This document shows positions 787 to 19,054 of a DNA stretch of 20,744 bases, piece by piece. Numbering within the stretch: the first letter of the stretch is position 1; every line of letters begins with the position of its first letter. Under the pieces are notes generated by a model. The model was not told the origin of the DNA, ran no database searches, and saw only the letters and a list, made by a program, of their open reading frames with translations. A program made the position numbers and the translations under genes. This DNA is from a virus, in the IMG/VR virus record IMGVR_UViG_3300027917_004202, positions 1 through 20,744 of that record. One strand, given 5' to 3'.

Positions 787-1019
787 TAGTGTCCCTTCAG
801 TTTGTCAAGTCTGATTTCCACCTGACTATCCTCAAGTTTGGTTAGCCGAGTTTCGAGACCATCGATGCGTTTCTCGAGTGCATCGAACTTGATAGTGGAA
901 GTGGCAATGAAGGTGCTGAGTTGGCCCTTGATTTCACCAAGCAGACCGCTCAACTTCCACCCAAATCCACCGATGATGCTTAGACCTGTGACTATGGCCA
1001 CGATTTGTTCAAATGTCAT
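786..1019 (-). CDS. Holin-like small membrane protein with coiled coil
   Basis: The start chosen gives 77 residues (MTFEQIVAIV...). That ATG overlaps the stop of the upstream 1192-residue gene as TAATG, the pattern used at four other junctions; an in-frame ATG at 1061 would add 14 polar residues inside the upstream gene and is less likely. Residues about 5-28 form one hydrophobic, Gly-containing membrane segment. Residues about 40-75 are heptad-like and charged (DALEKRIDGLETRLTKLED), predicting a coiled coil. Position directly before the endolysin, with stop/start overlap, suggests a holin that lets the endolysin reach the wall. No holin family is recognised by sequence; a spanin-like or membrane-anchored regulator would also fit one membrane segment plus coiled coil. 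Confidence 0.7.
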   Translation of the reverse strand: MTFEQIVAIVTGLSIIGGFGWKLSGLLGEIKGQLSTFIATSTIKFDALEKRIDGLETRLTKLEDSQVEIRLDKLKGH

Positions 1020-4000
1020 TACTTCCTCGCCTGTGTCTCGATGCCGAACTTGTTCTCCCAATATGCATCCATATCCTCGATGCTGAGGGTGACGATGTCC
1101 TTCAGCTTCTCAGCTTCGTCCTCGGCCTTTGCCAGTGCCTCGTTGTCGCCCATCCTTTCGGCCAGTTGGGCTTTTCGCTTGGCCTTCCACTTGCCGATGA
1201 CCGTCTCCATCTCTCGCTGCACACCGCGCTTGAAGCGTTGGTACTGGTCCTGGGTGTTTATCGTCTGGTAGCCGAGACCGATGACATTTCTGATGTGCCA
1301 GTCGAGAGCACTCTCGGCAGCCTTCATACCCGGCTCCACTTGACGGAACCTCTCGTTGGCTCCCTCACCAAAAACGAAAGCTCGGGCCGGGCCAGGCACG
1401 TACGCCTTGACGAAGTCCATTGGGTCGAACCGCTTTCCCTGTTCGTCAGCGTCGAGTGCTCGGGTGAAGACATCGAGCATAATACCACCACCGAGGCCAA
1501 CGAGTTTGAGAATAGTTGGAGCGAAGTCACGTTTGGTTGTGGCTTCCCGTTGCAGGCGTTTCATTAGCAGCGCGAACTCGGCGCCCTGTGGATCGGCGGC
1601 CTTGAACTTCTCGATGTCGCTTTCGGTGAAGCCATCGGTGAAGTTGGAGGCCAGGTCGAGCAGGCTGAGGGTGGGTTCCAGGAAGTTGGCTGAGGAGTAG
1701 CGGGCCACACCCACCTGGGCCGGGTTGCCGAGCGATTTGAAGGCCAGGGTGGCCGGGTTCTTCGGGTCGTAGGACATCATTCGGGCCATTTCGGGGTTCG
1801 AGACCGCCTCGTCCCTGGTGGCGGCAATCAGTCCAGCCCTCTTGATGCCGAGCAGGGCAGCGTCTGTTATGAGTTTGGCGTTGGCCGAGGCGCTGTTGGT
1901 GACGATATTGGTCGGGCTCTTCAGCACCGCCGACATCAGACCCTGTTTGACGAACGGAATGTCCAGAGCCTTGAAGCCCCAGGTGTAAAAGGGAGAACCA
2001 GCGCCGATGGCCGGTGCCTTTCTCAACTCGGTGATGAATGCCGGCACCCGACTGTAGTCGAAGTAGTAGGCATCCATTTGGTTTTTGGCGTAGCGAGCCA
2101 GCAGGTCGTTGAGTGCCGGGGTGGAGATGGGCTTGGGAATGCCCACCTTTTTGCCCAGACTGACCTTTTGCATTAGTAGGCCGGTGCCTTTCCGTGTGAT
2201 TCTGACGCTCACATTGGGAGACACGGGCACCTGCATGAACTGTCCGTCTGTCAGCGAGTTCGCGATGTCCTTGGCTTTCTTCCATTCTTTGAAGCCACCG
2301 CTGACACGATAGATGTTGTCGCCCATTTGCATAAGCTCGCCACCTTTTTCGGCAAGAAAGTCAAAAGGCTTTCCGACTGTGCCTGCCACGACATTTTCCA
2401 GCGCTGAGGCTGCTTCAACATCTGCCTTGATGACATTGGCTTCGAACAGGCCAGCGCGGCGAGCTGAGGCCAGGTATTGCTGTTGTTCGGGCGACAGCAG
2501 TTTGGCCTTGTCTTTGCCGCGGGTGAGGGCGTAGCGCAGCACATTGGCGAAGGGCAGCTCACCGTAGGCCACCGATGTCGCCACCTCGTTGCCGATGACG
2601 TTATTGACCATTGCCTTGGGATTGATGGGCAGTGCCACCTTCTTGGGAATGTCTGAAAGCAGAGTTTTCGCAGGCTCAAGAAGAGCACTCCACTGGCTTT
2701 GCTTGACAAAAGTCTTGGACCCTTCGAGCCATCCCTTGATGGCGGGATTGACAAGACCACTGATGCTCGTTCTGCCGTAGTCGATGATGGGGTCCAAACG
2801 ATTGACGTGAGCAATGGCCTTTTCCACAGCGGCGGCATTGTCAGGCGTTCTCAGGCTATTTATCTGCGCGATGAGTTCTTCTTTGGAGGTGGCACCTGTT
2901 GGTTGAGATGCCCGAATGAAGTTGGGTAGTGGCTTTCCTTCGGCAGCGGCCTCGACCAATGCCTCCGCTGTTTCCGTCATACCACCACCTTCGCCTTTAG
3001 TGATGCCTTGTTTGGCGACGGGCTCGCTCTTGGGTTTGATGAAGTTGGAAAACTCTTCGTCTAACAGTTGGCCTTGACGACCTGACTGCAGCTGTCGTCT
3101 GATATCCTGCACCGATTGTTTGTACAGTCTTTCCTGCACTTTGGCGTCTAATGCGCCACCTGCTGCCTCTGTTGCGTCTGCAATCTTTTTATTGACTGTG
3201 TTTTTTACCAATGCCAACATTTCAGCAGCGTTCAGGTCCTCAAGTTTTCCTCGATTTCCTGGTGCATTTGTCAGTGCTTGCACTTCATTGAATACCTTCT
3301 GACCGATGGCCTCTGCCTCTGCCGCTTGTTCCGCAGTCAGGACAAACGGAACCGGTTCTTCGGGTCGAGTTAGCGGAACCTTCTTCTTATCGGTAGCCGG
3401 TTGCCTGAACCCAAAACGCTCAGTCGCGACAGCTGGAGACGGAGGTGCGGTCGATGTTGTGGCGCGCGGGACTGAGGATGTCTCATCACCGAACTCGGCC
3501 TCGATTCGTTTGCCAGTGGTGATGAGTTCGTCGAGCAGGACATTGGCCTCAGGAGAGCCGGTCTCCAATGCATCGATGGTGCCGCGGTATGTATCTTGTG
3601 TCAGCCGCTTGAACTTTTCCCATTTGGGACCGCTGAATGGGATTTTGGTGGCCTTGACCCGTTCCAGCACCTCAGCCGCTCGAGCTGCGGCCGCTGTGCC
3701 TCGGGTCGCATTGGCAGCCGTCATAGCCAGCGGTACCAGTGTCAGAGCTGTGGTGAAGGGAGCTGTCTGAGCTGTCTCGATGGGATTGCGCACCGCTTCG
3801 ATGGCCTGAGTGGCCACGGCTGCAGGTAGGGCACGACCCAGAGCCTCACCGGCCTTGACCAGATCGACAGGCTTTTTGGGATCCGCCTCTTCCACCTGGG
3901 TGCCAATGAGAACCGTGCCGACAAGATTAGCCAGACCACCGACAACGACTGCCACATCCTGAGCCAGTCCGCTGACGAAGCCGTCCTCCTTTCGCTGCGC

Positions 4001-4597
4001 TCTCGTCTTGGCCAGCTCCTCTCGGGTGGCCTCCATTGTGCGCAGCGTCTCTTCCTCACCCTTCCGAATGGCGGCCAAGCGAGCAGCGCCGGGCACACCG
4101 GGCACGTAGGGCAGCAAGCTCTCAGCCACCTTCTCGCCTAGTCCTTTGACGGCACCACCGACAAACTCAGCTGTTTCAACAGGAGCCCTGAGAAGACCAC
4201 CCTTTCTGACGAAGCGGGTGTCGGGCACAGCCTGGGTTTGTGCTGCTGTCGGAACTGAGGGTGCCGGGCCGGCCTCTTCAGGCATTGGTACCGCATCCAT
4301 CTCTGCGGCGATCTGTCTCTCTTCAGGAGTTTCGGCCACATCACGAGGTGTGGGCATCATAGGCACGGGCACACCTTCCACCGTCTCCACCGGTTTCAGT
4401 GCCTCCGGTGAGAGGAAGGGTAGGGCACCTGCGACTGTCTCGCCCGTTTTTCGGGTACGTGCTTTGGCCAGAGCATCGTTGTAGTCGAGATCGATGTCAT
4501 CACGCTTGAAGCCGATTTTGCTGAACCTGGCAGCAATGTCGGCATCGCTGAAACCTGCATCTCTGGCTTCCTGCAGTTTTTGTCTGAGGGTTGGCAT
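1019..4597 (-). CDS. Very large virion protein, probable internal/ejection protein
   Basis: A 1192-residue protein, the largest here. The first 40 residues contain a compact helical motif (EARDAGFSDADIAARFSKIGF), of a kind I associate with the N-termini of large podovirus virion proteins. A Pro/Ala/Glu-rich linker follows (about 60-125). Residues about 208-232 and 280-297 are strongly hydrophobic and could insert in a membrane. The middle is Lys/Glu/Ala-rich. The C-terminal half is better ordered and includes an Asn/Gly-rich patch (NPKAMVNNVIGN, about 657-668) and YYFDYSR...SPFYTWGFK (about 844-872), which resembles a module I recall from very large phage polyvalent or structural proteins. 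No enzyme motif is seen. It follows two Ala-rich coiled-coil genes, with its ATG 2 bases past the preceding stop, so I infer a DNA-ejection role like T7 gp15/gp16 or P22 gp16/gp20. The role is inference; the coding call is firm. Confidence 0.9.
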   Translation of the reverse strand: MPTLRQKLQEARDAGFSDADIAARFSKIGFKRDDIDLDYNDALAKARTRKTGETVAGALPFLSPEALKPVETVEGVPVPMMPTPRDVAETPEERQIAAEMDAVPMPEEAGPAPSVPTAAQTQAVPDTRFVRKGGLLRAPVETAEFVGGAVKGLGEKVAESLLPYVPGVPGAARLAAIRKGEEETLRTMEATREELAKTRAQRKEDGFVSGLAQDVAVVVGGLANLVGTVLIGTQVEEADPKKPVDLVKAGEALGRALPAAVATQAIEAVRNPIETAQTAPFTTALTLVPLAMTAANATRGTAAAARAAEVLERVKATKIPFSGPKWEKFKRLTQDTYRGTIDALETGSPEANVLLDELITTGKRIEAEFGDETSSVPRATTSTAPPSPAVATERFGFRQPATDKKKVPLTRPEEPVPFVLTAEQAAEAEAIGQKVFNEVQALTNAPGNRGKLEDLNAAEMLALVKNTVNKKIADATEAAGGALDAKVQERLYKQSVQDIRRQLQSGRQGQLLDEEFSNFIKPKSEPVAKQGITKGEGGGMTETAEALVEAAAEGKPLPNFIRASQPTGATSKEELIAQINSLRTPDNAAAVEKAIAHVNRLDPIIDYGRTSISGLVNPAIKGWLEGSKTFVKQSQWSALLEPAKTLLSDIPKKVALPINPKAMVNNVIGNEVATSVAYGELPFANVLRYALTRGKDKAKLLSPEQQQYLASARRAGLFEANVIKADVEAASALENVVAGTVGKPFDFLAEKGGELMQMGDNIYRVSGGFKEWKKAKDIANSLTDGQFMQVPVSPNVSVRITRKGTGLLMQKVSLGKKVGIPKPISTPALNDLLARYAKNQMDAYYFDYSRVPAFITELRKAPAIGAGSPFYTWGFKALDIPFVKQGLMSAVLKSPTNIVTNSASANAKLITDAALLGIKRAGLIAATRDEAVSNPEMARMMSYDPKNPATLAFKSLGNPAQVGVARYSSANFLEPTLSLLDLASNFTDGFTESDIEKFKAADPQGAEFALLMKRLQREATTKRDFAPTILKLVGLGGGIMLDVFTRALDADEQGKRFDPMDFVKAYVPGPARAFVFGEGANERFRQVEPGMKAAESALDWHIRNVIGLGYQTINTQDQYQRFKRGVQREMETVIGKWKAKRKAQLAERMGDNEALAKAEDEAEKLKDIVTLSIEDMDAYWENKFGIETQARK

Positions 4598-4599
4598 TC

Positions 4600-6915
4600 T
4601 TACTCCGGAAGAAGTTCGTCTAGTGATTTACCGGCCGGCTTTGTAGGTACAGCAGGTGCAGCAGGTTTGGCAGCAGGAGCCGGAGCTGCAGGTGCAGTTC
4701 CGCCGCGCCTTTTCCTCAAGGTGCGCTTGATGTCCTCGACACCAGCCGCACGATCCTCCAGCAGACGAGCCTTGTTGGCCTGACACTCAGCAATGATATT
4801 GAGCTGTTCGGTTTTCTCACCGGGGATTGAGGCCAGGCGTGCCTGAGCTCTCTGGTAGTCGGCATTCGCCTTGTCCCACTTGGCCTTTTCTTGGGCATAG
4901 GCGCGCATTCTCTGAGACGACTGAACGGTGGGAAGTGTGGGTTCCGCTCCCGGGCTTTTGACGCGGGCGAGCTCTCTCTCTTCGCTTTCGAGTTCCCGGT
5001 GGCGTGTCCGAGCCTGGGTCTCCACTTGGTAGTTGAATGTGATGCTGTCTTTCTGGTTTTGCCTGACCTTTTTGAGGGCGGCACCGACACCGCGACCGGC
5101 CTTTCTGGCTCGCATCAGGGCAGCTTTTGCTCTGTCGAGTTCTGCGAAGGCGGAGGCTCGGGACTTGAAGGCTTTGGCCAGTTCGGCCTCGGTCTTCGCA
5201 CCACGCATCACCCTCTCAGTCTCGGCCCTCTCGCCGGTGAGTTTCGCCTGCTGACGAAGTTGCTCAGCCCTGGCAATGGACAGTTGGGCTTGGGCCAGGT
5301 CCTTCTCAGTCTGTGTCACAATCTTCGGGAACAGGTTCGAGACCAGCGCCATCTGTTGGGTGGATGCTTGTGTGGGACCGCCGAAGCCCAGGGCCTCGAA
5401 CAGGTTGGTGGCACGACGCTCCGGACGCAACACCTGTTGAGCGGCAGCCAGCACCAGCGCCTGCTTCTCTCTCGTGTCAGCCATCCGGGCAGCAGCGTAG
5501 ATACCGGCCGGAGTGCTGAGGTCGAAGCCTGTCATCTCGGGTTGGGCCTCAGTTTCAGCCGGCATCGTTTCACGACCAAGCAGACCCAGTGTTTCTGCCT
5601 GAGACACTGTCACCGGTGCCTCGGTGGGACCGACGCGTTGGGCGCGCAGCAACTGAAGCTCGTAGTTCTCGTAGTCAGTGCGTCCCGGTTTGGCTTCCAG
5701 CGCTGCAATCCGTTCCGCCACCAGTTCAGCGGGACCACGCTGCGTTTCGGAGGTCCTCTCTGGTGCTTCGGAAGTCTCAGCGGCCATAGTTGCCTCGGGG
5801 GCCTGTGTTTCCGGAGCTCGAGCGACCTCTGGGGCGGGTGCTGCGGGTGCTGTAGGTGTGACCCGACTGACCGAACCGACGGCACCCGGAGCCATTTCCT
5901 CCAGGAATGCCAGCAACTGTTGCTCAGCAGGGGTGGGATTGGGCTTCTGCAGAATGCGCATCTTGGCGTTATCGACGGCTTCCTGGCCCCTGTCGATGAT
6001 GGCATTACCGACGTTCGCCACCTCGGCAGAGAACTGGGGCGATGGCTCCATCTTGGCACCGGCACGAGCGCTTTCCAGCCGCTGTTGGGCTGTCGTCATT
6101 TCCCAGTCGAGACCAGCACCTTCCACCATTTTCTTAGCCTGCTGTTGCAGTTCCAGGAACATTGCACCCTGGCGGTTGGCCTCTTCTTGATTGCCTTCCT
6201 GCAGAGCGATGTCCCTGAGCTGGCGGTGACCCTCAGCCACACTCATCAGGCGCTTGGCCTCAGTTCCTGCTGCCTCTATCTCGGCCTCTCTGCCGCGGGC
6301 CATTTCAAGCTCGCCACGAGCGAATGCCTCACCGGCACGAGCCCTCTCCTCACGTGCCTGTCCGGCAGCCTCACGGGCCATTCCGGCCTCAATCTGGGCC
6401 AGACCCTGCTGCTCGGCCACAGTCGGTACCTTACGCTCGGCTTCCGAAATGGGTGCGGCGGGTTTGAGGGATGGCATAGCAGGAGCCGGTTGGGCTTTGG
6501 CCTGTGTCTCAAACTGAGACAGTCCCATTTCGTTGAGGCGTTCCCGCTGCCTGGGAGTGAGAGTGTCCAGGACAAAGCCCGGGACATTCATCGGACTGCC
6601 GTACTGCTTCAACACATTCTGAACGACACGGTCTTCCTGAAGGGCAGCCGACTGTGTCTGTTGTGTCAGACGAGCTTGTGCAGCCTGAGCCTTCAAGTCC
6701 TCGGGCGACGGCGTCAGTCCCTCACGAATGGCTGAGACTGCGCCCACAATGGCCGGAGACGAGATGATGCGCTCAGCCGTTCCGAGAACCGTATTGAACT
6801 GCTCAGCCGCAGAGGCTCTCGCCTTCGACTTCAACAGGCGCTCAGTGATTGCATCCACCCTGGCCGGATTGCGACGGTCAAGGTATTCGGATGTCGATGA
6901 GATAACTCTTGCCAT
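4600..6915 (-). CDS. Large Ala/Glu/Gln-rich coiled-coil virion protein
   Basis: A 771-residue protein dominated by Ala, Glu, Gln and Arg. Long helical, coiled-coil-like stretches lie at about 150-290 (EAEIEAAGTEAKRLMSVAEG) and about 520-720. They are separated by a Pro/Ala/Thr/Glu-rich linker near 345-395, and the C-terminal tail is Pro/Ala/Lys-rich, ending GKSLDELLPE. There is no membrane segment, no signal peptide and no enzyme motif. Composition and position between the 211- and 1192-residue genes match podovirus internal virion proteins that leave with the DNA. The start is supported by AAGGAAA about 8 bases upstream, and the next gene starts 2 bases after its stop. The biased composition produces a long open frame on the opposite strand, which I do not consider a gene. 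Exact function unknown. Confidence 0.9.
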   Translation of the reverse strand: MARVISSTSEYLDRRNPARVDAITERLLKSKARASAAEQFNTVLGTAERIISSPAIVGAVSAIREGLTPSPEDLKAQAAQARLTQQTQSAALQEDRVVQNVLKQYGSPMNVPGFVLDTLTPRQRERLNEMGLSQFETQAKAQPAPAMPSLKPAAPISEAERKVPTVAEQQGLAQIEAGMAREAAGQAREERARAGEAFARGELEMARGREAEIEAAGTEAKRLMSVAEGHRQLRDIALQEGNQEEANRQGAMFLELQQQAKKMVEGAGLDWEMTTAQQRLESARAGAKMEPSPQFSAEVANVGNAIIDRGQEAVDNAKMRILQKPNPTPAEQQLLAFLEEMAPGAVGSVSRVTPTAPAAPAPEVARAPETQAPEATMAAETSEAPERTSETQRGPAELVAERIAALEAKPGRTDYENYELQLLRAQRVGPTEAPVTVSQAETLGLLGRETMPAETEAQPEMTGFDLSTPAGIYAAARMADTREKQALVLAAAQQVLRPERRATNLFEALGFGGPTQASTQQMALVSNLFPKIVTQTEKDLAQAQLSIARAEQLRQQAKLTGERAETERVMRGAKTEAELAKAFKSRASAFAELDRAKAALMRARKAGRGVGAALKKVRQNQKDSITFNYQVETQARTRHRELESEERELARVKSPGAEPTLPTVQSSQRMRAYAQEKAKWDKANADYQRAQARLASIPGEKTEQLNIIAECQANKARLLEDRAAGVEDIKRTLRKRRGGTAPAAPAPAAKPAAPAVPTKPAGKSLDELLPE

Positions 6916-6926
6916 TGGTTGTTTCC

Positions 6927-7562
6927 TTAGATTGAGATTTCGGAGGGCATCTTGTTGGCATTGGCCCGGGCCGCAGCATTGATATAAACTTGCGCCTTTG
7001 CCGGGTTGGTCTCAGCATTTGCCAGGGCGATGAGCTCACGATACATTTGACGATAGTCGTCCTCAGATGTCCAGACCTTTCCGCGGTACTTGACCTCTAC
7101 GCCCTTGACAGCGGCGTAAGCCTCGGCGGCGCCGGCTGCACGCTCCTTCTCGGCCTGGAGAAGCTTTCCTTCCTCCAGAAGTCGTTGCGTTTTTGCCTGC
7201 GCAGCCTGTTGCTTGGCACCTGACAGCTGTTCCGCGAACTGCGACCTGAAAAGCTTCTCTTTGGTGGCAGCCTCACCTGCGGTGCCACGAGCCAGAGCCA
7301 GACCTCGTCCGCCTTCCACCAGGCCGCGCTGTGTGGCCAGAGCTTGGGCAGCACCACGACGAAGGCTCTCGATGGAGGCGGCTTCTTGTTTCTGAATGTC
7401 AGCAATGGCACCCGCAGCCGCCTGCTCCTCACCCAGAAGACCTTCCCTAATCTGCTTCTCGATGGCAGCTTCCTGCTCGTAAATGGATGTGTCAAATCCC
7501 ATTGGGACGACATACTCAACGCCACCGACGTTAACCTTTTTTCCCTGCACTCGTGTAGCCAT
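6927..7562 (-). CDS. Ala-rich helical protein, probable small internal virion protein
   Basis: A 211-residue protein. The first 25 residues look like a short beta segment (KKVNVGGVEYVVPMGFD). Residues about 28-160 form a long Ala/Glu/Gln/Lys-rich helix or coiled coil, interrupted by a Gly-rich turn (GLVEGGRGLALARGTAGEA, about 80-98). A compact C-terminal part contains WTSEDDYRQMYRELIALANAETN. The size resembles the smallest of the three internal ejection proteins of podoviruses (for example T7 gp14), and it heads the block of three such genes. Unlike T7 gp14 it shows no obvious membrane span. It lies 20 bases after the 613-residue gene and 11 bases before the 771-residue gene. The ribosome site is modest (AGAGG). 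The coding call is confident; the role is inferred from size, composition and order. Confidence 0.88.
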   Translation of the reverse strand: MATRVQGKKVNVGGVEYVVPMGFDTSIYEQEAAIEKQIREGLLGEEQAAAGAIADIQKQEAASIESLRRGAAQALATQRGLVEGGRGLALARGTAGEAATKEKLFRSQFAEQLSGAKQQAAQAKTQRLLEEGKLLQAEKERAAGAAEAYAAVKGVEVKYRGKVWTSEDDYRQMYRELIALANAETNPAKAQVYINAAARANANKMPSEISI

Positions 7563-7582: not shown

Positions 7583-9424
7583 TTACTTGACAGCGGCCGA
7601 AGTTGTTGCCACTTCCATTTTGCCGATGATGTAAATCCAGTGTCCGCCCATGCCCACATAGGTGGTGCCGGCCGGGTTCGGGTCACCTGTTGCGCCCGAG
7701 TTGAGACCGTTGACATCGGACATTTTCCACCTGACTTCCAGGAACAGTTCGCCGCCTGCCGTATTGGGAGTGCGAGTGGTGCCTGGTGCGCCAACCACAC
7801 CGACCGAGCGCCTGGCTCTGGTGGCCAGACCCGACTTACCGACATAGTATGGGAAGCCCTGGTCAGCGTAGCCGCGGGTGCCTCGTCCTCCCAGCACATT
7901 CGAAACGAGTGGCACCTGCATCAGCGCGAGCTCGTAGTTGTTTGTCAATGTCTGATCGCCGCCGAAGAACGGCGCTTCCACACCGGGTTTGCACCTATCA
8001 AACTCGTAGAGAGCCTTTGTGTCCGGTGTGTAGGAGACGAATGCCACCTGCTCGTATTGCTTTGCGTCAGCCCGCAGACCGGTGCAGATGCCCACACCGA
8101 TTTCTGAGGTGAATGTGGGAGATGTCGGAAGAGTGCCCCACTGCCAGATATTGGGACCTGCAGGAAGCACATACGGACGTGCCAGGCCGTTGTAGCTCGG
8201 ATAGTAGGACGGAAATATGATTTTTGGTGATGCGTAGTTATGAACGGCGATGACCTGATGCACCACAAATGATTGTGAGATGGGAATGAGGCGCCTGTCC
8301 TGCAGCGAGCCGTTCCAGACATTGGGTGCCGGGTTGTTTTGGTCACCGTATGGCAGACCCACTCGGTTGATGTCCTCGGACCTGATGTCGTTCCAGCCAC
8401 CGAACATTGGCACGGCAATGACTGTGTAGCCGGTGTCGTGAGAGATGGGTTCTTCGGGACCAGTGACACCGCGTGGGTCTCGTCCAGCCGGCAGACCCCC
8501 CAGCACCACCGCATCCAGCATCTCAGCATTTTGCTGCAGGCGACCGTTGCCGGCCACACCTGTCCTGGCGGTGATGAGAGAATCCGCAGTGGGGGTGTCG
8601 ATGCTGACGCTCATACCAGCCTGGCCGCCATCGGCGAAAACAGGCACGTTCTGAATGGGATTCTCTTCCGGATCGTATGCGTCACGGCGTAGGATGGGAC
8701 CTTCGAAGTTGAGCTTGATAGTCAGGGAGCTCACAGAGAAGCGCTTCTGGACTTCATCCACAAGTTTGCCAGCCCAGATTTTGGGGAAGTTGATGCCCAT
8801 CAGGTAGGTCTTGAACGGATCGATGACCTCGTCAATGCCGTCAATGAAGACAGGATTGAACTGCTGGACATCACCTGCGAAAAGGAGACCTGAGATAGAC
8901 TGTTCGAAGATGAACTTTTTAGCGGAGTGGTAGATTGGGTCAGAGGTGAGACCATAGACATAGGCCTGGTCTTTGGTACGAATGGTGAGGTCAATATCGT
9001 AGATGTCAGCGCTGGCATTCAGATAGACTGAATCATTCAAGCCACCGTCGGTGTCCCAGGTATCAGTCACACCGTTCGGTCCCATTCCTGTATCGAGAGA
9101 GACTGAGATGCTGCGTAGCACCGGCATCGGTGTTTCATCTCCGATTTTACCCTCATTCCACAAATCCTGCGTCGGCGGCAACACGAATGGCACCACCAAC
9201 TGGTTCGGGTCAGCGCCTGGATAGGTCGGTTGAAACTGAAAAGCATAGGCCGGCAGTCGTGGCCAGTTGAATGTCAGCGAGAAGGAGCCATTGTTGAGCT
9301 CGAGGTTTTCAGGCTCAATCGTGACACCGTTCAGTGCAGAGGCAATGCCCTGAGTGGCATCGGACCAATGTTGAGCGGTGAGCTTTGTGCCGCGAGCCAG
9401 GTCACGTCTGGAGATTTTTGCCAT
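7583..9424 (-). CDS. Beta-rich virion structural protein, 613 residues
   Basis: A 613-residue protein not recognised by family. It begins with a short helical segment (RRDLARGTKLTAQHWSDATQGIASALNG, about 6-33). The rest is rich in aromatic residues, Gly, Pro, Asn and Asp with alternating strands, as expected of a beta-sandwich virion surface protein. The N-terminal pattern, a basic start then a helix placing the chain before a beta domain, resembles that of the neighbouring 301-residue protein (RKISDIQFEDKTVISGDNIDTFLEDA). The two may bind the same virion site or have related folds. The C-terminal segment (GGHWIYIIGKMEVATTSAAVK) looks like a final strand plus a tail. Its ATG overlaps the upstream stop (TAATG). 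Candidates are tail appendage, receptor-binding protein, capsid fibre or head decoration. No hydrolase motif or collagen-like repeat is seen. Confidence 0.88.
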   Translation of the reverse strand: MAKISRRDLARGTKLTAQHWSDATQGIASALNGVTIEPENLELNNGSFSLTFNWPRLPAYAFQFQPTYPGADPNQLVVPFVLPPTQDLWNEGKIGDETPMPVLRSISVSLDTGMGPNGVTDTWDTDGGLNDSVYLNASADIYDIDLTIRTKDQAYVYGLTSDPIYHSAKKFIFEQSISGLLFAGDVQQFNPVFIDGIDEVIDPFKTYLMGINFPKIWAGKLVDEVQKRFSVSSLTIKLNFEGPILRRDAYDPEENPIQNVPVFADGGQAGMSVSIDTPTADSLITARTGVAGNGRLQQNAEMLDAVVLGGLPAGRDPRGVTGPEEPISHDTGYTVIAVPMFGGWNDIRSEDINRVGLPYGDQNNPAPNVWNGSLQDRRLIPISQSFVVHQVIAVHNYASPKIIFPSYYPSYNGLARPYVLPAGPNIWQWGTLPTSPTFTSEIGVGICTGLRADAKQYEQVAFVSYTPDTKALYEFDRCKPGVEAPFFGGDQTLTNNYELALMQVPLVSNVLGGRGTRGYADQGFPYYVGKSGLATRARRSVGVVGAPGTTRTPNTAGGELFLEVRWKMSDVNGLNSGATGDPNPAGTTYVGMGGHWIYIIGKMEVATTSAAVK

Positions 9425-10329: not shown

Positions 10330-10836
10330 TTAGACCTCAAAGATTGTTGTCACATTGACGTGAGCGGTTGGACTAGACTTGATGCAGCCGACAATGCCGG
10401 CGTTGGCAGCCGGGCCTGCATTATTTACATAGCCCGCGCTTTCGAACGAACATCCCACAAACGAGGCTCGAGCACCGTTGGCCATTCCCACTTCCTTCAG
10501 AAATCTGCAGCCGATGAATGAGATCCTGGCGGTGCTTGTCATCGTCACTGTCTCATCAAAATCGATGTTGGTGATGATACCTTCCGCTGCACCCAGAGTT
10601 GCTGCCACAGAAGTGGTGGCCCCTGCAGATGAGACCCGGGCTGATGCTGCCGAGACAAAGCCCAACTGAAACGACTGGGGTGCCAAGTTGAGAAATGCGT
10701 CAGTAGCCTTCGGCACATCTTTTGTTGTCTTGAGATTGAGGGCGACAATGATGTCCTTTTCAATCTGTCTGACTTCCTGTTGCTGCTGCTCCTTCGAATC
10801 CTCAAGCGGAGGCAGCTCTCTGACAATACGCGGCAT
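10330..10836 (-). CDS. Small protein with N-terminal coiled coil and beta-helix-like rungs
   Basis: A 168-residue protein. Residues about 10-35 form a Gln/Glu-rich helix (SKEQQQQEVRQIEKDIIVAL) likely to oligomerise. Residues about 55-85 are Ser/Ala-rich. From about 88 onward short strands repeat, with FIGC (107-110), FVGC (126-129) and IVGC (148-151) at similar points of successive turns. This pattern recalls small right-handed beta-helices in which Cys and hydrophobic residues stack between rungs. A helical N-terminus plus a short beta-helix fits a trimeric spike, tail tip or adaptor. Its ATG overlaps the stop of the 986-residue tail gene (TAATG) and its stop abuts the next ATG, tying it to the tail or appendage genes. 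The beta-helix is inferred from the repeat only; no family is recognised. Confidence 0.85.
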   Translation of the reverse strand: MPRIVRELPPLEDSKEQQQQEVRQIEKDIIVALNLKTTKDVPKATDAFLNLAPQSFQLGFVSAASARVSSAGATTSVAATLGAAEGIITNIDFDETVTMTSTARISFIGCRFLKEVGMANGARASFVGCSFESAGYVNNAGPAANAGIVGCIKSSPTAHVNVTTIFEV

Positions 10837-13796
10837 TAGCGACCTCTCCGTCTCATTCCGGGAATCATTCGCACAAGGACTGACATAGCACCGATGCGAA
10901 CGCGTTCAGCCGGTGAGAGGACGTGACCGAATGATTGCACCACGATCCTGTCGCCCTTGACGCCGACCGATGTCTTGACATTGTCATATTGTGCATCGCC
11001 GATGAGGAAGTTGCCCGCGGCAGTGTTGCTGAAGTCTCCCCAGGTAGCCGTGGTGTTGAAGGTAGCTTTGCTCTGAGCAGCCGAGGTGCCCATTCTGTTT
11101 CTCAGCATCTCTTTACCGACCTTGATGAGACCGGCCGGGTCAGTCAGGAAGTCCAGAAACTGCGAAGCATAGGCCTTGTAGTTTGTCGAGGTGATGACAT
11201 TGAAAAGACGTAGCGGCCAGGAGCCAACACCCGGGTCGCCAGCCTGCAGCGTGGCGTTGCCACTGTGCTGAATGTCCGTGTTCAGTCCGCGGGCCACCAT
11301 CATATAGCCCTGTTGGTCCGAAGCTTGTTCCTCAGCGGTATAAACCCAATCGACTGACTGGACCGTAGGAGCATTCTGTGAGAGCCGCATAGCTCTGGTC
11401 TGGTCGTCCCACACTGCCACCTGCACCGGCCTGTTCGGTTGGCGTGTAGTGGAGTGGGTGGCGACCAGGGGTTCAATACCGAGCGAGAAAGTATCGACTA
11501 AGTTACCGACACCGGCCTTGCGCCTGAACGGAAGCAGAATGACCGGGTTACGATAGCGTGGAATGAAGTCGAACTCAGGGGCTGTGACGTGAGTGGCCGC
11601 TGCACCGTCAATGTGGATTTTGATGATGTCGCCAGTCGGAGACGGTAGGCCGGTGCCACTGTCAAAGCACCAAACGCCCTGTTGTGCAGTATTGTCAGCC
11701 GTGCCCAAGAAATAGGCACCAATGGCACCGAGACGTTCCGGTGGCAGGTCGAATACCACTTCGTAGGGGTTAATGGCGATTTGGTTGATGTAGGGTTCCC
11801 AGTGTGTGTTGTCGAAGGAGAACTCGAGCACCCAGGATGTGACGCTCTGTGCGCCTGCAGGTGCCACACCGACATCGTTGTAGTTGGGCACGAGTTCGAT
11901 TGGCACCCACATCGGTGAGAAGTCAGAGGCTCCGACACTGTTTCCCGCCCAGCTGAAGCTGTATCGATTGGGAATGGTGATGGGCTTGTTGATGAAATAC
12001 CAGGCCCTATCCCGGACGTTATTGATGATGTCTTCGTTGAAGCCCGTGTTACGCCACTCACCGGTGAGAATGCGTTTGTCCTCGTAGTCATTGGAAATAG
12101 AAGCATCGAGACCGCCACCACGACCGAGACGAAGCAGAGCGTAGGATGCCGAGGGGTTGTCGTAGCCGGTGACCAGCTCATCCCGCAGAGTTGTGTCATC
12201 CAGCGCCTGCTCTCGAACATCTGTCACCATATAGATGTCGCCGTCAGTGGCCAGCAGCCACGGTCTCGGCATGTTGCGAACGGCCTTGACAATGGGCTGT
12301 GGTTCCAGGGCACCGTCATCTGAGACAACAGATTCGTAGTTCCAGATGTGGAAGCCACCGTCCTCAATGACGAATGTCAGCAGCAGGTTTGGAATGGTGA
12401 TGAGAACCTGATTGTGGGTGGCTTCATACTCACAGTTGACACCCACGTAAGCATCTGAGTTCCACTCGAAGAAGGAACGAGGTTGCGGATCGTCGCCGGT
12501 GGTGGCACCATTGGAGGTGTAGTAGTTGAGAAGCGGGTTGGAGATGGAACCCTCGAAGAAGTTCTGCATCACATCTGAGATGCGCTGCGCCGAGGTGTTG
12601 CCGTAGTTTCTCCAGACACCGTTCTTCGCCACCCAAATGATGGCGCCATCCACATTCACCCAGGCATTGGGACCGAGACAGCCGACTGTGTCGCTCATCA
12701 GACGAGTGGTGCCACCAGAAATGAGGTCGCCCTGTGCCGGGTTGTAGTAGTAGGCCTTGTCGTCCTCGGTCCAGACGATGAGATTGCCCAGTGTCTCTGC
12801 CACCGCCGTGATGCGAGCCGGGAAGCCCTGCACGTTTGTATCCACGATGGCGTTCAAGTCCTCAGGATCGCTGAAGTAGAGGACATTATCGACAGCATAC
12901 ACCATTCGCCTGTCCAGCACGCAGGCCGCTTGTGGCAGACCGAAGTCGTCCTGTGTCAGGTAGGTTACACCGTCTCCGGAGAAGATGCCGTCACGAATGC
13001 CGAGGGGCTGAATGCAGCTCGTCTCTCCGTACGGATCCTTGTAGTCCTGAGTGTAGAGGCCATTGACCGACATCCGGCGGCCTCTCCAGCTTTTCTGGTC
13101 GTTTCTGACATCAGACGCGGCATACACCCAGGCACCTGACCTGGCATTACCGAAGACCACATAGACGCGGCCGGCGGTGTCCTTCGTCTCAGCGAACCAG
13201 AAGTATTCGTCCCTGTCAGTGTTGAACTCTCGGTTGGGTCCCTGCTCGTTCTGACCGGCATCGATCCACTCTTGAAAATCGCTCTCGTATTTCTCGCCGC
13301 GCACAGCTTCAAAGGTGGCGTGCCTGTCCGGAATGAGTGCATCATCCTGAGACGTGTGGTAGTGAAGTGGCACCTGCACATAGTCGTCCGAGGTCAGGTC
13401 ATAGACGACGACAGTGTAGAGAGTGCGATACTGCGCCAGTTTTTCGTAGGCGTCGAACGTGACACTGGCATCGCTCAGAATGTGGTCGGTGGTGTAGGCA
13501 TTGGTGCGAAACACAGAGATGACCTGCTTGTGACCGAAGCCGGCATCACCAATGATGTAGGAACCGAGATGGCGCTGGAAGCCGATAGGGTAGGTATTGT
13601 TGCCCACCACGACTTCTCGACCGGTTGTCATATCGCTATCAATGACAGCGATCGTTCCGAAACCAGGACGGGTCGTCCAGCTCTCCTCAATCTTTTCGAG
13701 GTTCTGGATCCAGGAAAAGCCGCGGTTCGGAGCATTGGGATTGATGCCCTTACCGACGAGATTGAGGAACTGGGATTGCTTAGTAATAACTGCCAT
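10836..13796 (-). CDS. Tail/DNA-stabilisation protein, beta-propeller type
   Basis: A 986-residue protein. The N-terminal half has the general character of podovirus tail hub proteins (P22 gp10 packaged-DNA stabilisation protein; T7 gp12 tail tubular protein B). It opens with a segment on the chain's path and an RPGFG motif (about 44-48), followed by many short strands with repeating aromatic/Gly turns. The segment NVLYFSDPEDLNAIVDT (about 303-319) is a pattern I associate with this family. The protein is longer than both relatives, so the C-terminal half (after about 560) holds extra beta-rich material and ends in a very basic tail (GMRRRGR). It follows the head-tail adaptor with 8 bases between, as in known podovirus layouts; AAGGAAGG gives a good ribosome site. 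The tail-hub call is probable from motif and position; detailed homology is not proven. Confidence 0.85.
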   Translation of the reverse strand: MAVITKQSQFLNLVGKGINPNAPNRGFSWIQNLEKIEESWTTRPGFGTIAVIDSDMTTGREVVVGNNTYPIGFQRHLGSYIIGDAGFGHKQVISVFRTNAYTTDHILSDASVTFDAYEKLAQYRTLYTVVVYDLTSDDYVQVPLHYHTSQDDALIPDRHATFEAVRGEKYESDFQEWIDAGQNEQGPNREFNTDRDEYFWFAETKDTAGRVYVVFGNARSGAWVYAASDVRNDQKSWRGRRMSVNGLYTQDYKDPYGETSCIQPLGIRDGIFSGDGVTYLTQDDFGLPQAACVLDRRMVYAVDNVLYFSDPEDLNAIVDTNVQGFPARITAVAETLGNLIVWTEDDKAYYYNPAQGDLISGGTTRLMSDTVGCLGPNAWVNVDGAIIWVAKNGVWRNYGNTSAQRISDVMQNFFEGSISNPLLNYYTSNGATTGDDPQPRSFFEWNSDAYVGVNCEYEATHNQVLITIPNLLLTFVIEDGGFHIWNYESVVSDDGALEPQPIVKAVRNMPRPWLLATDGDIYMVTDVREQALDDTTLRDELVTGYDNPSASYALLRLGRGGGLDASISNDYEDKRILTGEWRNTGFNEDIINNVRDRAWYFINKPITIPNRYSFSWAGNSVGASDFSPMWVPIELVPNYNDVGVAPAGAQSVTSWVLEFSFDNTHWEPYINQIAINPYEVVFDLPPERLGAIGAYFLGTADNTAQQGVWCFDSGTGLPSPTGDIIKIHIDGAAATHVTAPEFDFIPRYRNPVILLPFRRKAGVGNLVDTFSLGIEPLVATHSTTRQPNRPVQVAVWDDQTRAMRLSQNAPTVQSVDWVYTAEEQASDQQGYMMVARGLNTDIQHSGNATLQAGDPGVGSWPLRLFNVITSTNYKAYASQFLDFLTDPAGLIKVGKEMLRNRMGTSAAQSKATFNTTATWGDFSNTAAGNFLIGDAQYDNVKTSVGVKGDRIVVQSFGHVLSPAERVRIGAMSVLVRMIPGMRRRGR

Positions 13797-13804
13797 AGCC
13801 TTCC

Positions 13805-14506
13805 TTACGGATCAACAAGATAAGGATCTTCCGCCGTCACAAATCGATTGGCATTCCTGAGGCGGCCGCGTTCCACGAAGTCATTGACATCCTGGAGGCG
13901 CTTTTGGATTTGACGCAGGGTGCTGGTGTTGTCTGCGGTGTCCATCATGAAATAGTGCTTGGCCGCGAACAGAGCGATTAGGTCGTGGAATGCCAGCATC
14001 TCGTCAATGTATTCGTTGTCACCCACATTGATTTGTGTCCAACGCACATTGGAGAGCGGAATGTATTCGATGCGAATGGTGGCATTGATTTGGCCACTGA
14101 ACTTCAGCAGGGTGCCCTGTAGCATGAAGCGGGCTGGGTAGAGGATGCCTGGCGTGATGAGCTGCTCGTAGGAATACACCGGTGTGTAGATGTTTGTCGG
14201 CACACCTGAAGTGTCCAGCTGCACAATGCGCAGGATTTGTGACACCTGACGAGCCGGAGCGGCCACCGTGGGTCCCATAATGGCAGGCACTGCTGTCGCC
14301 AGATCGAGCTCAGTCACACCGGCCAGAGCATAAGTCTGGGTAGCGATGTAGAAGTTTGGGTCGATATCCGAGACAGCCTGCACAAACTCGTCGTAGCCTA
14401 TCTCCAGGAACTTGGAGACCGTAGCGTCGTCGATGAATGTGGCATCGTTCTCATCGATGATGAGCCTGAAGTAGTCGGCCACGTTTTCGCAGTATTTCAT
14501 TGCCAT
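13805..14506 (-). CDS. Head-tail adaptor protein
   Basis: A 233-residue protein of the size of podovirus adaptors (P22 gp4, T7 gp11) that dock under the portal and prepare the tail attachment site. The N-terminal part is helical (residues about 1-45, with DDATVSKFLEIGYDEFVQAVSD). A beta-rich middle follows (about 55-150). The C-terminus is a long helix (LRQIQKRLQDVNDFVERGRL). This helix / beta / helix build is that of the adaptor family. It comes right after the portal, with a TAATG overlap, and right before the propeller-like tail protein, the expected order. Two Met codons lie at the start (MAM); the first overlaps the portal stop and is preferred. The call rests on position and general architecture. 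Confidence 0.78.
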   Translation of the reverse strand: MAMKYCENVADYFRLIIDENDATFIDDATVSKFLEIGYDEFVQAVSDIDPNFYIATQTYALAGVTELDLATAVPAIMGPTVAAPARQVSQILRIVQLDTSGVPTNIYTPVYSYEQLITPGILYPARFMLQGTLLKFSGQINATIRIEYIPLSNVRWTQINVGDNEYIDEMLAFHDLIALFAAKHYFMMDTADNTSTLRQIQKRLQDVNDFVERGRLRNANRFVTAEDPYLVDP

Positions 14507-16443
14507 TATCGCACAGCTCCTCTATTGAATGACAGTGCCTCGTTCGAAGCCACATCAACATTTCTGGCTTCCTGCGCCTGGATTGCGTCGGCCACTCCCT
14601 GCTCACCCAACCTATCGACTGCAGCGCCTGTCTGCTGCTCCATCGCGAAGGGTGAGTTTTGCAGCAGCGTCAGATTGCGAGCCTCTTCAGGGGTGGAGAT
14701 GTTTGAGCGTGGGAACACCTTCATTCTGTCCGCCATGTTGCGTGCCACTTCGTCGCCTGTCTCATCGTTGGGTGTTGAGACGGCGATGAGAATGTCTCTG
14801 ATGTAGTCCTGACGCTCTGGGTCCAGCTCGTAGAAGTCGCGGCCCTTCATGTATTCGCCGAACACCTGCTGGAAGGCTTCCACATCGTCAGTGGCGAAGA
14901 TTTCGATGAGACCGCCATTCACAACAGCTTCCAGCATGTCATTTGCATGGGCCATGCCTTCCAGTTGCTCCACAATGTAGGCGTTGCCAGTGCGGAACTG
15001 AAGCTCCTTCATTGCCACGTCCTTGTCAATCAGGCCGGCCTGGAAGAGGGAGATGACACGAGCCTCGCGGTCAGCAGCCTTGTCCTGGAAGAGCGAACCG
15101 GCCTCGATGAAGATTTCCGGGTCCTCCACAATCTGAGTGCTATCGACCTGGTGGAAAATGACACGACCCACGTTGTCCAGCATCCTGTAGAGCTTGGGTT
15201 CCGTGTAAAATGTCTTCATCATCATTAGCACTGTCTGTGCCATGTATTGGCAGGCTTTCTCCACCGAATCCTGGGTGGTCTGTAGGGCCGAAACGTCTTG
15301 AGCGCTCAGCGTCTCGATGGCCTTGCCGCTGATGATGCCAGTGGCTCGTTTGCCCAGTGTGGTGGAGTGAATGCCGGCCACATCCATCATCTCAGCCTGT
15401 AGCTGGCGAATGTTGTCGATGACATAGCCCGGAATGGGAGCTGCCGGAACCTGTTGGGGTGTGCCACCGGCAGGATTGTAGAAGATTTTCTCACCGGCAC
15501 GCTTGGTAATGGCATTGGGTGCCACACCTGCAGACTTGGGAATGAGCCACTTGGGATTGGCCATCAGCTCCACATTCATCAGGATTTGGCCGCGGGCTCT
15601 GTTGTAGTAGGACTGCAGCTCAATCAGAGGCGTGACCATCGACAGGCCCCACAGGCGGTTGGGAATGTCGGTGTATTTCATGTGCTGAAATGGGAAGATG
15701 CCGGGCAGCTCACCCTCGAACAGGTAGCTTTGGTTGCCCAACATAATGCCGTATTTGCCGTTTTTCAGATAGACTTCGTAGCAATCGACTTTGCCCGGCG
15801 GCACATAGTTCATCGAATACAGGTAGCTGTTTTGCTGTTGTGTGTAGTTCGAATCACCGGAGGCGGTGTATTTTTCAATGGCCTCAGTGTGCTCCGGGTA
15901 GGCCTCGATGAGATCTTCCTTGTCGTAGAACTGGCGAACGGCCACCCAACGTGCATCATCCAGGTTGGCCACACCGGCCTCGTAGAAGATGTCGAACGGG
16001 CTGATGGCCTTGGTGCAGACGTTGTCTCTGTCAGGATCGTAGTATGTCAGCCATCCGGCATTGCCGAAGAGGAGCAGGTATTCGATGACCCGATTGACTT
16101 TCGCCGAGATGTCCTCCGCTTTCCAGTAGTACCTGAGCGCGGCCTCAGATGCTTGGGCCTTGATAATGTCCTCTTTAGACGGTGAAGCCGGCAGAACCAC
16201 GACACCAGGATACGCAGCGCTAAGCTTACTAAGGACAGTGCGATACAGAGGCAGAAGTTGGTTGATCGTCGGAACATTGGTAATCTCCCGAGAGTTGATG
16301 TAGGTCTGCAGGTTCCTGTCGTATGTCAGGTTCTGTTGGCCTTGAAGATATCGCTGGTTGAGGTCCCAGCTCCTCTCTTCGACAGTCTTAGCCGTTTTGG
16401 CATCAGCCATCTTTGCGATGATGTCTTTCAGTTCGAGTGCCAT
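14506..16443 (-). CDS. Portal protein
   Basis: A 645-residue protein forming the ring through which DNA enters and leaves the capsid. Several portal traits are visible. There is an N-terminal helical segment with YLQGQQNLTYDRN (about 32-44) and then THE core segment with NQLLPLYRTVLSKLSAAYP. A wing/stem portion (WGLSMVTPLIELQSYYNRARGQ, about 265-286) matches the usual G-x-S/P-x-hydrophobic... then Q-x-x-Y/N-x-x-x-x pattern. A long C-terminal Gln/Ala/Glu-rich helical region corresponds to crown and barrel. The length is within the podovirus portal range. The start has AAGGAT 7 bases upstream. The gene lies after the capsid gene and a Gly/Ala-rich gene, rather than between terminase and scaffold, which is not the common order. 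The call is strong from sequence character and from the adaptor next door. Confidence 0.9.
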   Translation of the reverse strand: MALELKDIIAKMADAKTAKTVEERSWDLNQRYLQGQQNLTYDRNLQTYINSREITNVPTINQLLPLYRTVLSKLSAAYPGVVVLPASPSKEDIIKAQASEAALRYYWKAEDISAKVNRVIEYLLLFGNAGWLTYYDPDRDNVCTKAISPFDIFYEAGVANLDDARWVAVRQFYDKEDLIEAYPEHTEAIEKYTASGDSNYTQQQNSYLYSMNYVPPGKVDCYEVYLKNGKYGIMLGNQSYLFEGELPGIFPFQHMKYTDIPNRLWGLSMVTPLIELQSYYNRARGQILMNVELMANPKWLIPKSAGVAPNAITKRAGEKIFYNPAGGTPQQVPAAPIPGYVIDNIRQLQAEMMDVAGIHSTTLGKRATGIISGKAIETLSAQDVSALQTTQDSVEKACQYMAQTVLMMMKTFYTEPKLYRMLDNVGRVIFHQVDSTQIVEDPEIFIEAGSLFQDKAADREARVISLFQAGLIDKDVAMKELQFRTGNAYIVEQLEGMAHANDMLEAVVNGGLIEIFATDDVEAFQQVFGEYMKGRDFYELDPERQDYIRDILIAVSTPNDETGDEVARNMADRMKVFPRSNISTPEEARNLTLLQNSPFAMEQQTGAAVDRLGEQGVADAIQAQEARNVDVASNEALSFNRGAVR

Positions 16444-16452
16444 TTGATATCC

Positions 16453-16935
16453 TTAGGATGGAAAGGCGGGCAACGGTACGTCGCGTGTTTGCAGATATGC
16501 CTGAAACTTATCAGTGTTGAAGAGGCCAGGGTTTTTCTGCAATGCAGCCGCAATGTCCTTGTCAGACATTTTGGAGAAGTCATACTGACCCATCATATTG
16601 GCCATGCCTCCAACCTTCGACCCCATCGATGCCAGGTTACCGAGAGCTTTGGCAGCCTCGTCACCGGAGCCCGTTCGTGCCATCGCTTCCTTTTCAGCCT
16701 CGGTCATCGCGACACCAGACAGTTCTCCACCGAGCTGGGCACCCATTGAGATGAGGGCGGGATTGCCTGTCATGTAGGCTCCGACTGCACCGGCCGCAGC
16801 ACCGAGACCAGTGCCCACTGCCTTCTTCATTCCACCGCGTTTTGCCACGCCTGCGTCTGAAGCGCGGTCCATCTTTTCTTTCAAGGCTGCCGCGCCCGCT
16901 TTTCGAGCAGCGAGATAGCTATCGAGATTTGCCAT
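16453..16935 (-). CDS. Unrecognised Gly/Ala-rich protein between capsid and portal genes
   Basis: A 160-residue protein. Residues about 1-40 are basic and helical (LAARKAGAAALKEKMDRASD). Residues about 41-75 are Gly/Ala-rich with GxxxG-like spacing (GLGAAAGAVGAYMTGNPAL), possibly membrane-interacting or tightly packed helices. The C-terminal half is Met/Gly-rich, then ends in a small folded-looking segment (MSDKDIAAALQKNPGLF). No family is recognised. It is the first gene after the capsid terminator and has a clear ribosome site (CAGGAG, 5 bases before ATG). Its stop is 9 bases before the portal ATG. Candidates are a minor head protein, a small internal protein ejected with DNA, or a portal-associated factor; none can be shown from sequence. 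The coding call is firm by spacing and ribosome site. Confidence 0.85.
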   Translation of the reverse strand: MANLDSYLAARKAGAAALKEKMDRASDAGVAKRGGMKKAVGTGLGAAAGAVGAYMTGNPALISMGAQLGGELSGVAMTEAEKEAMARTGSGDEAAKALGNLASMGSKVGGMANMMGQYDFSKMSDKDIAAALQKNPGLFNTDKFQAYLQTRDVPLPAFPS

Positions 16936-16940
16936 CGATA

Positions 16941-16946
16941 CTCCTG
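16941..16946 (-). promoter_or_regulatory. Ribosome binding site of the Gly/Ala-rich gene
   Basis: CAGGAG on the minus strand, 5 bases before the ATG at 16935. It fixes the start of the first gene after the terminator. Confidence 0.6.
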
Positions 16947-16950
16947 TATT

Positions 16951-16966
16951 CTATCTATTACTGGAC
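16951..16966 (-). promoter_or_regulatory. Candidate phage promoter, copy 2
   Basis: The minus strand reads GTCCAGTAATAGATAG, sharing 12 of 16 positions with the element before the scaffold gene (GTCCAGTAGATAATAG). Both read GTCCAGTAnnnnATAGA and both lie in gaps between genes, pointing at the downstream gene. This copy begins 2 bases after the T-run of the capsid terminator. A terminator followed at once by a new promoter makes regulatory sense. A TAGAAT hexamer could serve as a -10 box, but no TTGACA-like box stands at the right distance, so a promoter for a phage-encoded or modified RNA polymerase is more likely than a plain sigma-70 promoter. It could also be an RNA processing site. Function is inferred. 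Confidence 0.45.
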
Positions 16967-16968
16967 AG

Positions 16969-17004
16969 AAAAAAAGAAGGGGCCAGAGCCGAAGCCCTGA
17001 CCCC
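16969..17004 (-). terminator. Intrinsic terminator after the major capsid gene, UUCG loop
   Basis: On the minus strand GGGGTCAGGGC, TTCG, GCTCTGGCCCC form an 11-base-pair stem (two G-U pairs) closed by a C(UUCG)G tetraloop. TTC and seven T residues follow. It lies 22 bases past the capsid stop codon. This is a textbook rho-independent terminator and would end or thin out the capsid transcript before the portal and tail genes. The same place is used by the T7 terminator after gene 10. Confidence 0.93.
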
Positions 17005-17026
17005 CTCAACTTAGCTCAGCCTTCTA

Positions 17027-18265: not shown

Positions 18266-18272
18266 TTTGTGT

Positions 18273-18279
18273 TCTCCTT
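18273..18279 (-). promoter_or_regulatory. Strong ribosome binding site of the major capsid gene
   Basis: AAGGAGA on the minus strand, 7 bases before ATG. It is a near-perfect Shine-Dalgarno site, in keeping with the very high translation needed for the capsid protein. Confidence 0.75.
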
Positions 18280-18301
18280 ATGAACGTTAGGTGTTTTGAA
18301 A

Positions 18302-19054
18302 TCACCGCCCTTGCAGTGACTTCCAATACTCTAATGCGGCCGCCCTTGCGTCACGCATCGTTTTGGGTTGTGCTGTCGGCGTCGGACCGTTGCCTCCGCT
18401 TGCTGTGGGTCGTCTGGGTGCTGCGGGCTTGGCAGGGACTGTGCCCTTCAAGTGCTCAGCGATTGCCGCCTGTTGAATCTCTGAAATCCACGAATCGTAT
18501 TGCATTGCCACGACGCGCATATCAACAGTTGGGTCATTTACGACGGCCTGCAGCAGAACGGCCTCAGGAACGGATGGGTACTGCTTGGACACTGATGCGA
18601 GCTCTGCTTCGAGCTCGGCCTGTGCCTGTTTCTCTTCGAAACTTCTGAGACGCGATTCGAGGGACTTGTAACGGTCGTCATCCGGTTCGTCCAGTTGCCT
18701 GAACAACTCCTCGAGGTCATCGTCCTCAGGTACCACCGCTTTCTGGGGTGCTGCGGACTTTGCTTCCAGTTGGGCCTTCAGCTCCTCTAGCTGGCGAGAC
18801 AGTTCGTTGTTTTTCGACTTGAGCTCATTCTTTGTCTCAACAACGCTTTTGAAACGCTTGTAGGGGATGTTGTGACCCTCGTCGTTCTTGTCCTCGGTGG
18901 ATGTGTCCGGGACTTGATTTTCATCCGTCTTGACTTCGACCGGGGCGCTCGGCTCCGGCTGGGTCTGGGGAACGACATTGGCAGGCTCTTGAACTTCGCC
19001 TGCCTCAAGACGACTAGCTAGACTAGCCATCGCATCAGAGCTTAGAAAACTCAT
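18302..19054 (-). CDS. Capsid scaffolding protein
   Basis: A 250-residue protein directly upstream of the capsid gene. It has a Pro/Glu/Asp-rich disordered start (about 20-65) and then a coiled-coil helix (about 66-98, FKSVVETKNELKSKNNELSRQLEELKAQLEAK). An acidic patch follows (PEDDDLEELFRQLDEPDDD), then a second helical region (about 128-155). A Pro/Gly-rich linker leads to a basic helical C-terminus (MRDARAAALEYWKSLQGR), the kind of segment scaffolds use to bind the coat protein. Charge-rich, helical, low-complexity build plus position is the usual signature of scaffolds, which show little sequence conservation. No protease motif is visible, so a fused maturation protease is unlikely. The start has AAAGGTGA just upstream. 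Confidence 0.82.
   Translation of the reverse strand: MSFLSSDAMASLASRLEAGEVQEPANVVPQTQPEPSAPVEVKTDENQVPDTSTEDKNDEGHNIPYKRFKSVVETKNELKSKNNELSRQLEELKAQLEAKSAAPQKAVVPEDDDLEELFRQLDEPDDDRYKSLESRLRSFEEKQAQAELEAELASVSKQYPSVPEAVLLQAVVNDPTVDMRVVAMQYDSWISEIQQAAIAEHLKGTVPAKPAAPRRPTASGGNGPTPTAQPKTMRDARAAALEYWKSLQGR

Follow-up and report, generated by a model that had tools for sequence, protein, structure and literature searches.

In phage T7 (Autographiviridae), the DNA-ejection genes gp14, gp15, and gp16 follow one another in the order small, medium, and large, with products of 196, 747, and 1318 amino acids (aa). For proteins of the three types, a portion of PMC8954989 gives ranges of 181 to 240, 431 to 982, and 609 to 1337 aa, respectively, and states that size and synteny are the usual grounds for matching gp15-like proteins. 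The order is identical in gp7, gp20, and gp16 of P22 (229, 471, and 609 aa). In N4 and DEV (Schitoviridae; gp52-gp51-gp50), a small, a medium, and a giant ejected protein of 150, 644, and about 3500 aa are encoded in one operon (PMC12633501, excerpt), and in the Bcep22-like podophage JC1 the consecutive products gp67, gp68, and gp69 (196, 510, and 4515 aa) are listed among the virion proteins (PMC9144972, excerpt). Here, we analyzed a 20,744-base stretch of DNA (the window), which is the complete IMG/VR record IMGVR_UViG_3300027917_004202, classed as a virus record. Three of its open reading frames (ORFs), g211, g771, and g1192, had been read in an earlier note as a probable DNA-ejection module. 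Computational analysis supports this reading through gene order, protein sizes, operon form, the place after the tail genes, a predicted tail nozzle, and the muralytic domains that some relatives carry. We predict that the three genes very probably make up a DNA-ejection cassette comparable to those of T7, P22, and N4, and that the phage, which is uncultured, has a short tail.

The main genes of the window all lie on the minus strand, to which all window coordinates below refer. The cassette consists of g211 (positions 6927 to 7562; 211 aa), g771 (4600 to 6915; 771 aa), and g1192 (1019 to 4597; 1192 aa), separated by 11 and 2 bp, and the lengths and spacing given earlier were confirmed. All three lengths fall inside the published ranges for T7-like proteins, and the arrangement agrees with the operon form given in PMC8954989; the small and large proteins of some relatives exceed the ranges. 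The three are genes and not chance ORFs, as homologues with 31 to 60% identity keep the same order in other contigs. None of them has a passing match to a Pfam or PHROG family. The alanine content is 19.9% in g211, 18.0% in g771, and 14.0% in g1192, compared with 3 to 14% in the other window proteins except for g160 (20%). The description of g211 and g771 as Ala-rich coiled coils thus holds for composition, while the coiled coils find weak support in helical periodicity relative to shuffles (z = 2.0 and 1.4, respectively).

The likeness to T7 extends beyond size order to the tight spacing and to the position of the cassette after the adaptor and nozzle genes. The window runs through genes for the terminase large subunit, a scaffold-like protein, the major capsid protein, g160, the portal, g233, g986, g168, g301, g613, g211, g771, g1192, a holin-like protein, an M15 endolysin, and a partial gene. 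Product g986 (10836 to 13796; 986 aa) is predicted to have the fold of the tail nozzle proteins T7 gp12 and P22 gp10. Its AlphaFold2 model, built from 27 sequences, has a mean predicted local distance difference test (pLDDT) score of 72.5 and a predicted template modeling (pTM) score of 0.76. In a Foldseek search with this model, rows 1 to 23 are all phage tail chains, headed by cyanophage A4 (E = 2.0e−18), PhiM1, P-SCSP1u, and T7 gp12, and row 24 is unrelated. VIA-align similarly places phage tail chains in rows 1 to 30 (Z from 19.5 to 13.4, P22 gp10 first); because the first unrelated propeller follows at Z = 13.1, only the upper rows carry weight. PHROG matches of g986 are weak and agree with the nozzle assignment. 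On the basis of the modeled nozzle, the virion is predicted to be short-tailed, and the source of the window is an uncultured podophage lineage.

A scan with the single capsid sequence retrieved 17 viral contigs, and a capsid profile scan reported 118 viral relatives (80 of the 118 are listed); single-query searches of viral contigs with the portal, the large protein, and g986 found no relatives. The long contigs preserve the order of genes from the terminase through g613. In 17 contigs compared for layout, the small, medium, and large genes follow g613 wherever the sequence is readable, with the qualifications that the small gene of G003 is recognized by profile only, that a 93-aa gene lies between small and medium in G007, that a string of N interrupts the large gene of G009, and that G012 and G025 end early. 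A scan starting from g613 yielded 78 loci, of which 43 with at least three called downstream ORFs were kept; the 35 left out are mostly contig ends and include L198, where the small ORF was not called. In 42 of the 43 loci (not all distinct, since, for example, L140 and L141 as well as L148 and L150 look alike), a small ORF of 182 to 293 aa and a medium ORF of 458 to 882 aa precede a longer or end-cut ORF. The remaining locus, L199, departs from this pattern by an additional gene of 192 aa. Neighboring cassette genes are separated by anything from a 35-base overlap to a 42-base gap, mostly by fewer than 15 bases. The 21 complete large ORFs measure 1018 to 2272 aa, and large proteins across all loci listed reach 3294 aa. 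The small-medium-large layout is a rule of this lineage.

Outside the lineage, matches become distant. Among the INPHARED records, the portal matches 15 and the capsid 13, for the most part from Arthrobacter and Microbacterium phages; identity over the matched region is always below 60% and mostly 20 to 36%. The window large protein has no tblastn match among the 50,697 phage records of INPHARED (E ≤ 1e−5); large proteins of two relatives had no match there at E ≤ 1e−3 and that of a third had none at 1e−2. When 84,980 prokaryote genomes were scanned for the capsid, two loci emerged, L299 and L300, in Micavibrio and Planctomycetota bins, which may be binned phage contigs. In L300, an ORF of 2350 aa also matches g986 weakly. 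Our literature search found no description of this lineage's cassette, which does not disprove that one exists.

Across the lineage, medium proteins have the consensus start MARIxP, in which M1 is invariant and R3 is at least 90% conserved (an exact MAR start in 23 of the 42 called ORFs), and g771 has this conserved N-terminus. A Pfam search of the 42 medium proteins detected SLT domains in three (best E = 5e−24), PG_binding_1 in three, and PG_binding_3 in two. The SLT domains are located at the C-termini of the proteins from L177 (aa 685 to 793 of 833), L187 (646 to 752 of 795), and L201 (665 to 783 of 882), and each includes a Glu-Ser motif, which we take to be catalytic. SLT also occurs in shorter frames elsewhere in 7 further records. 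A regular expression for SLT matched no medium protein and two small proteins (L161 and L180, unchecked), and the Pfam model was used instead. The SLT and peptidoglycan-binding domains point to an action of the medium proteins toward the periplasm, and the SLT domains parallel the lysozyme domain known on some gp15-like proteins (PMC8954989, same portion). The window itself was said to lack a transglycosylase motif, and SLT is indeed absent from its proteins up to E = 10, with positive control genomes. No peptidoglycan hydrolase was found in the window cassette; it is an optional feature, absent in P22.

The large protein g1192 has two conserved modules flanking a spacer of widely varying length. 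The N-terminal module (aa 197 to 320; positions 3638 to 4009) is partly hydrophobic and is present in 47 of 56 large-ORF entries. It contains the most hydrophobic stretch of the protein (aa 215 to 233; 3899 to 3955; hydropathy measure KD19 = 2.01), a possible membrane segment located toward the N-terminus rather than the C-terminus. Of the membrane-like segments noted previously, this stretch is the only clear one, and those near residues 909 and 1025 are weaker. The C-terminal core (aa 611 to 1171, about 550 aa; positions 1085 to 2767) is present in 14 of 18 large-ORF entries, the exceptions being G011, G013, a G012 fragment of 129 aa, and the first half of the interrupted gene of G009. It was also found in 26 ORFs of L131 to L208, some from contigs already counted. 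Leave-group-out searches recovered the window core at E = 1.3e−92 and the window N-terminal module at E = 1.5e−13, with the best decoys at 0.001 or worse; for the N-terminal module, L187, L201, L162, and L174 do not score better than the best-decoy range. Two matches to known families came from single large proteins of alignment A3, one to DUF7831 (2.5e−39) and one to phrog_2072 (4.6e−14). Profile searches against solved structures with A3, A4, and A5 gave marginal matches only.

How far this cassette differs from the described ones depends on the level of comparison. No sequence similarity to T7 or P22 was detectable, the window large protein lacks the transglycosylase of its T7 counterpart, and g211 lacks membrane helices. 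The large protein without a peptidoglycan hydrolase resembles that of P22, whereas the P22 medium and large proteins (471 and 609 aa) are much smaller. In both T7 and P22, the portal gene comes first, whereas in the window the capsid gene precedes the portal gene. With N4 and DEV, the cassette shares the operon of three increasing sizes, but a Pfam search of 34 large-protein rows (two sets of 17 with some duplicates) found no RNA polymerase family, barring a marginal RPOC_hybrid match, and no peptidoglycan hydrolase (E ≤ 0.01). The earlier suggestion of a distinct apparatus is therefore borne out for the sequences, unmatched by T7 and P22 even in profile comparisons, but not for the principle: the lineage appears to have a cassette with no known sequence relatives in an arrangement that is already known.

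Several results weigh against an ejection function. When alignments of the small and medium proteins and of the core were compared by hhalign with 17 T7 and P22 proteins, all probabilities were below 1; the parallel to T7 had been drawn from size order without a sequence match, and it stands in that form. For two large proteins, those of G011 and G013, the searches did not recover the core. The AlphaFold2 model of g1192 is poor (pLDDT 58.9, pTM 0.45), with good stretches at aa 1 to 50 and around 760 to 845, and it has no match among solved structures at E ≤ 0.001, a result of little weight given the weak model. No membrane helix is predicted in g211 (KD19 windows of at most 0.67 in this crude hydropathy test), and gp14-like proteins normally have several (PMC8954989, same portion).

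The best-surviving alternative, which we consider unlikely, is that the large protein acts as a polyvalent effector of the DarB/LPD type that is injected into the cell, with the two smaller proteins needed to package it and not to form a DNA tunnel. Polyvalent proteins have been proposed to be packaged and injected (PMC5512222, excerpt), and the wide variation in large-protein length noted above favors this explanation. When the g1192 model was compared with BFVD, four predicted viral proteins matched at E ≤ 0.001, the best of which is named a large-polyvalent-protein-associated-domain protein (E = 1.6e−15). Bcep22-like phages, in turn, show that a small-medium-giant set can include a giant with LPD38 near its C-terminus: JC1 gp67-68-69 and BcepIL02 gp68-69-70 (234, 530, and 4667 aa) are consecutive and precede the lysis genes. 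Their giant has SLT, helicase-like, LPD3, and LPD38 domains (SLT, LPD3, and LPD38 in BcepIL02), whereas none of these passes in g1192. A first profile comparison of the core with LPD38 was at the level of shuffles; a deeper one scored 24.3 and 27.6, values reached by 4 and 1 of 200 block shuffles, respectively, and by 0 of 200 column shuffles, and by eye three motifs of the core and LPD38 occur in like order. The g771 profile, however, which served as the unrelated control, reached 28.9 with LPD38, and we therefore do not claim this link. The Pfam model of LPD38 (PF18857) also matched none of 13 cores at E up to 10 and none of 11 records, the latter with silent controls, and no convincing effector enzyme emerged from the Pfam search of the 34 large-protein rows. 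The effector and DNA-tunnel roles are not exclusive.

Far less probable is that the three products remain in the virion as internal scaffold or structural proteins. Their helical, Ala-rich character and the neighboring head and tail genes would suit that role, but a separate scaffold-like gene (a weak match) precedes the capsid gene, and the muralytic and peptidoglycan-binding domains of some medium proteins point to the periplasm. Least probable of all, and rejected on the nozzle prediction for the upstream g986, is the tape measure of a long-tailed relative, which the earlier note had named as a possible refutation, or a set of tape-measure and tail-chaperone proteins: long helical Ala-rich proteins do occur among tape measures and the distant portal and capsid matches lie in Arthrobacter and Microbacterium phages, which we take to be long-tailed, but no tail tube, tail chaperone, or baseplate gene was recognized among the proteins of the window, which is a fragment.

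The small protein g211 occupies the equivalent place in relatives and has a central Gly-rich hinge, in which G85 is at least 90% conserved (42 sequences). Between the genes for the major capsid protein and the portal lies g160 (positions 16453 to 16935), whose glycine-zipper stretch (aa 35 to 74; 16714 to 16833) has four GxxxG motifs in 40 aa (shuffle P = 0.007). Across the relatives, at least three GxxxG motifs in 40 weakly charged residues were found in the capsid-portal gaps of 33 of 43 distinct ORF sets, and 29 of the 33 stretches surpass shuffled versions of themselves at P < 0.05; each gap was represented by its best ORF, and the P values are uncorrected for that choice. Three more gaps have no ORF at all. 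Among 57 distinct small proteins, a strong N-terminal zipper is present only in those of G007 (9) and L203/G033 (10), the next best reaching 5, and the capsid-portal gaps of these two lack a notable zipper (171 bases in G007; 567 bases with a spurious frame only in G033). Other ORFs occur in this gap as well. In many relatives, L010, L012, L044, L046, L075, and L090 among them, the zipper gene comes after a second ORF of 50 to 77 aa that has a single strongly hydrophobic stretch, and extra ORFs of 280 aa in L038, 154 aa in L039, and 122 aa in G009 (L103) resemble homing endonucleases in their motifs.

The association in G007 and G033, which comprises two cases, is consistent with relocation or fusion of the zipper. 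Because the small proteins of these two lineages bear a zipper that their gaps lack, the g160-type zipper and the small protein may act as one unit, and this association leads us to suggest the zipper protein as a fourth ejectosome part. We infer that g160 may be part of a membrane channel and may supply the membrane part that g211 lacks. Tentatively, and with the odds somewhat against it, the outer-membrane part would be split between a g160 zipper channel and the soluble, Ala-rich g211, so that the ejectosome would have four parts and its pore would be encoded apart from the cassette. N4 gp52 and DEV gp73 are small pore formers with a role equivalent to the one proposed here (PMC12633501, same excerpt).

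We propose that g211, g771, and g1192 would be packaged inside the capsid near the portal and, on adsorption, would exit through the nozzle. Product g211, probably together with g160, would make an opening in the outer membrane, and the helical g771 would make a tube across the periplasm. The large protein would leave last; its hydrophobic N-terminal module would lie at the inner membrane, while the conserved core would hold or pull the DNA.

In the head region (14506 to 19054), the order is scaffold, capsid, g160, and portal. The portal gene (14506 to 16443; phrog_156, E = 4.5e−35) is followed by g233 (13805 to 14506), a probable portal-nozzle adaptor by position alone, conserved between portal and nozzle and without a match in the solved structures searched. 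Gene g613 (7583 to 9424), which is conserved and adjoins the cassette upstream, probably encodes a tail or fiber protein, again by position. Downstream of the cassette are a holin-like small membrane protein gene (786 to 1061; start codon uncertain) with one hydrophobic segment and a relative in an equivalent place, and a peptidase M15 endolysin gene (409 to 786; PF08291, 2.4e−23; phrog_894, 8.8e−38); lysis genes in this place favor the ejection reading. In the relative G004, no M15 endolysin match was found, and a 139-aa ORF after the cassette (L030:2796-3215) resembles an NlpC/P60-type hydrolase by eye.

Ejection proteins diverge fast and are recognized mostly by size and place. The lineage described here provides deep alignments for a cassette without known sequence relatives, and these alignments separate the fixed parts (the two modules of the large protein, the MARIxP start of the medium protein, and the Gly hinge of the small protein) from the variable ones. 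Comparison across the lineage also suggests where the membrane pore may be encoded, a proposal open to testing.

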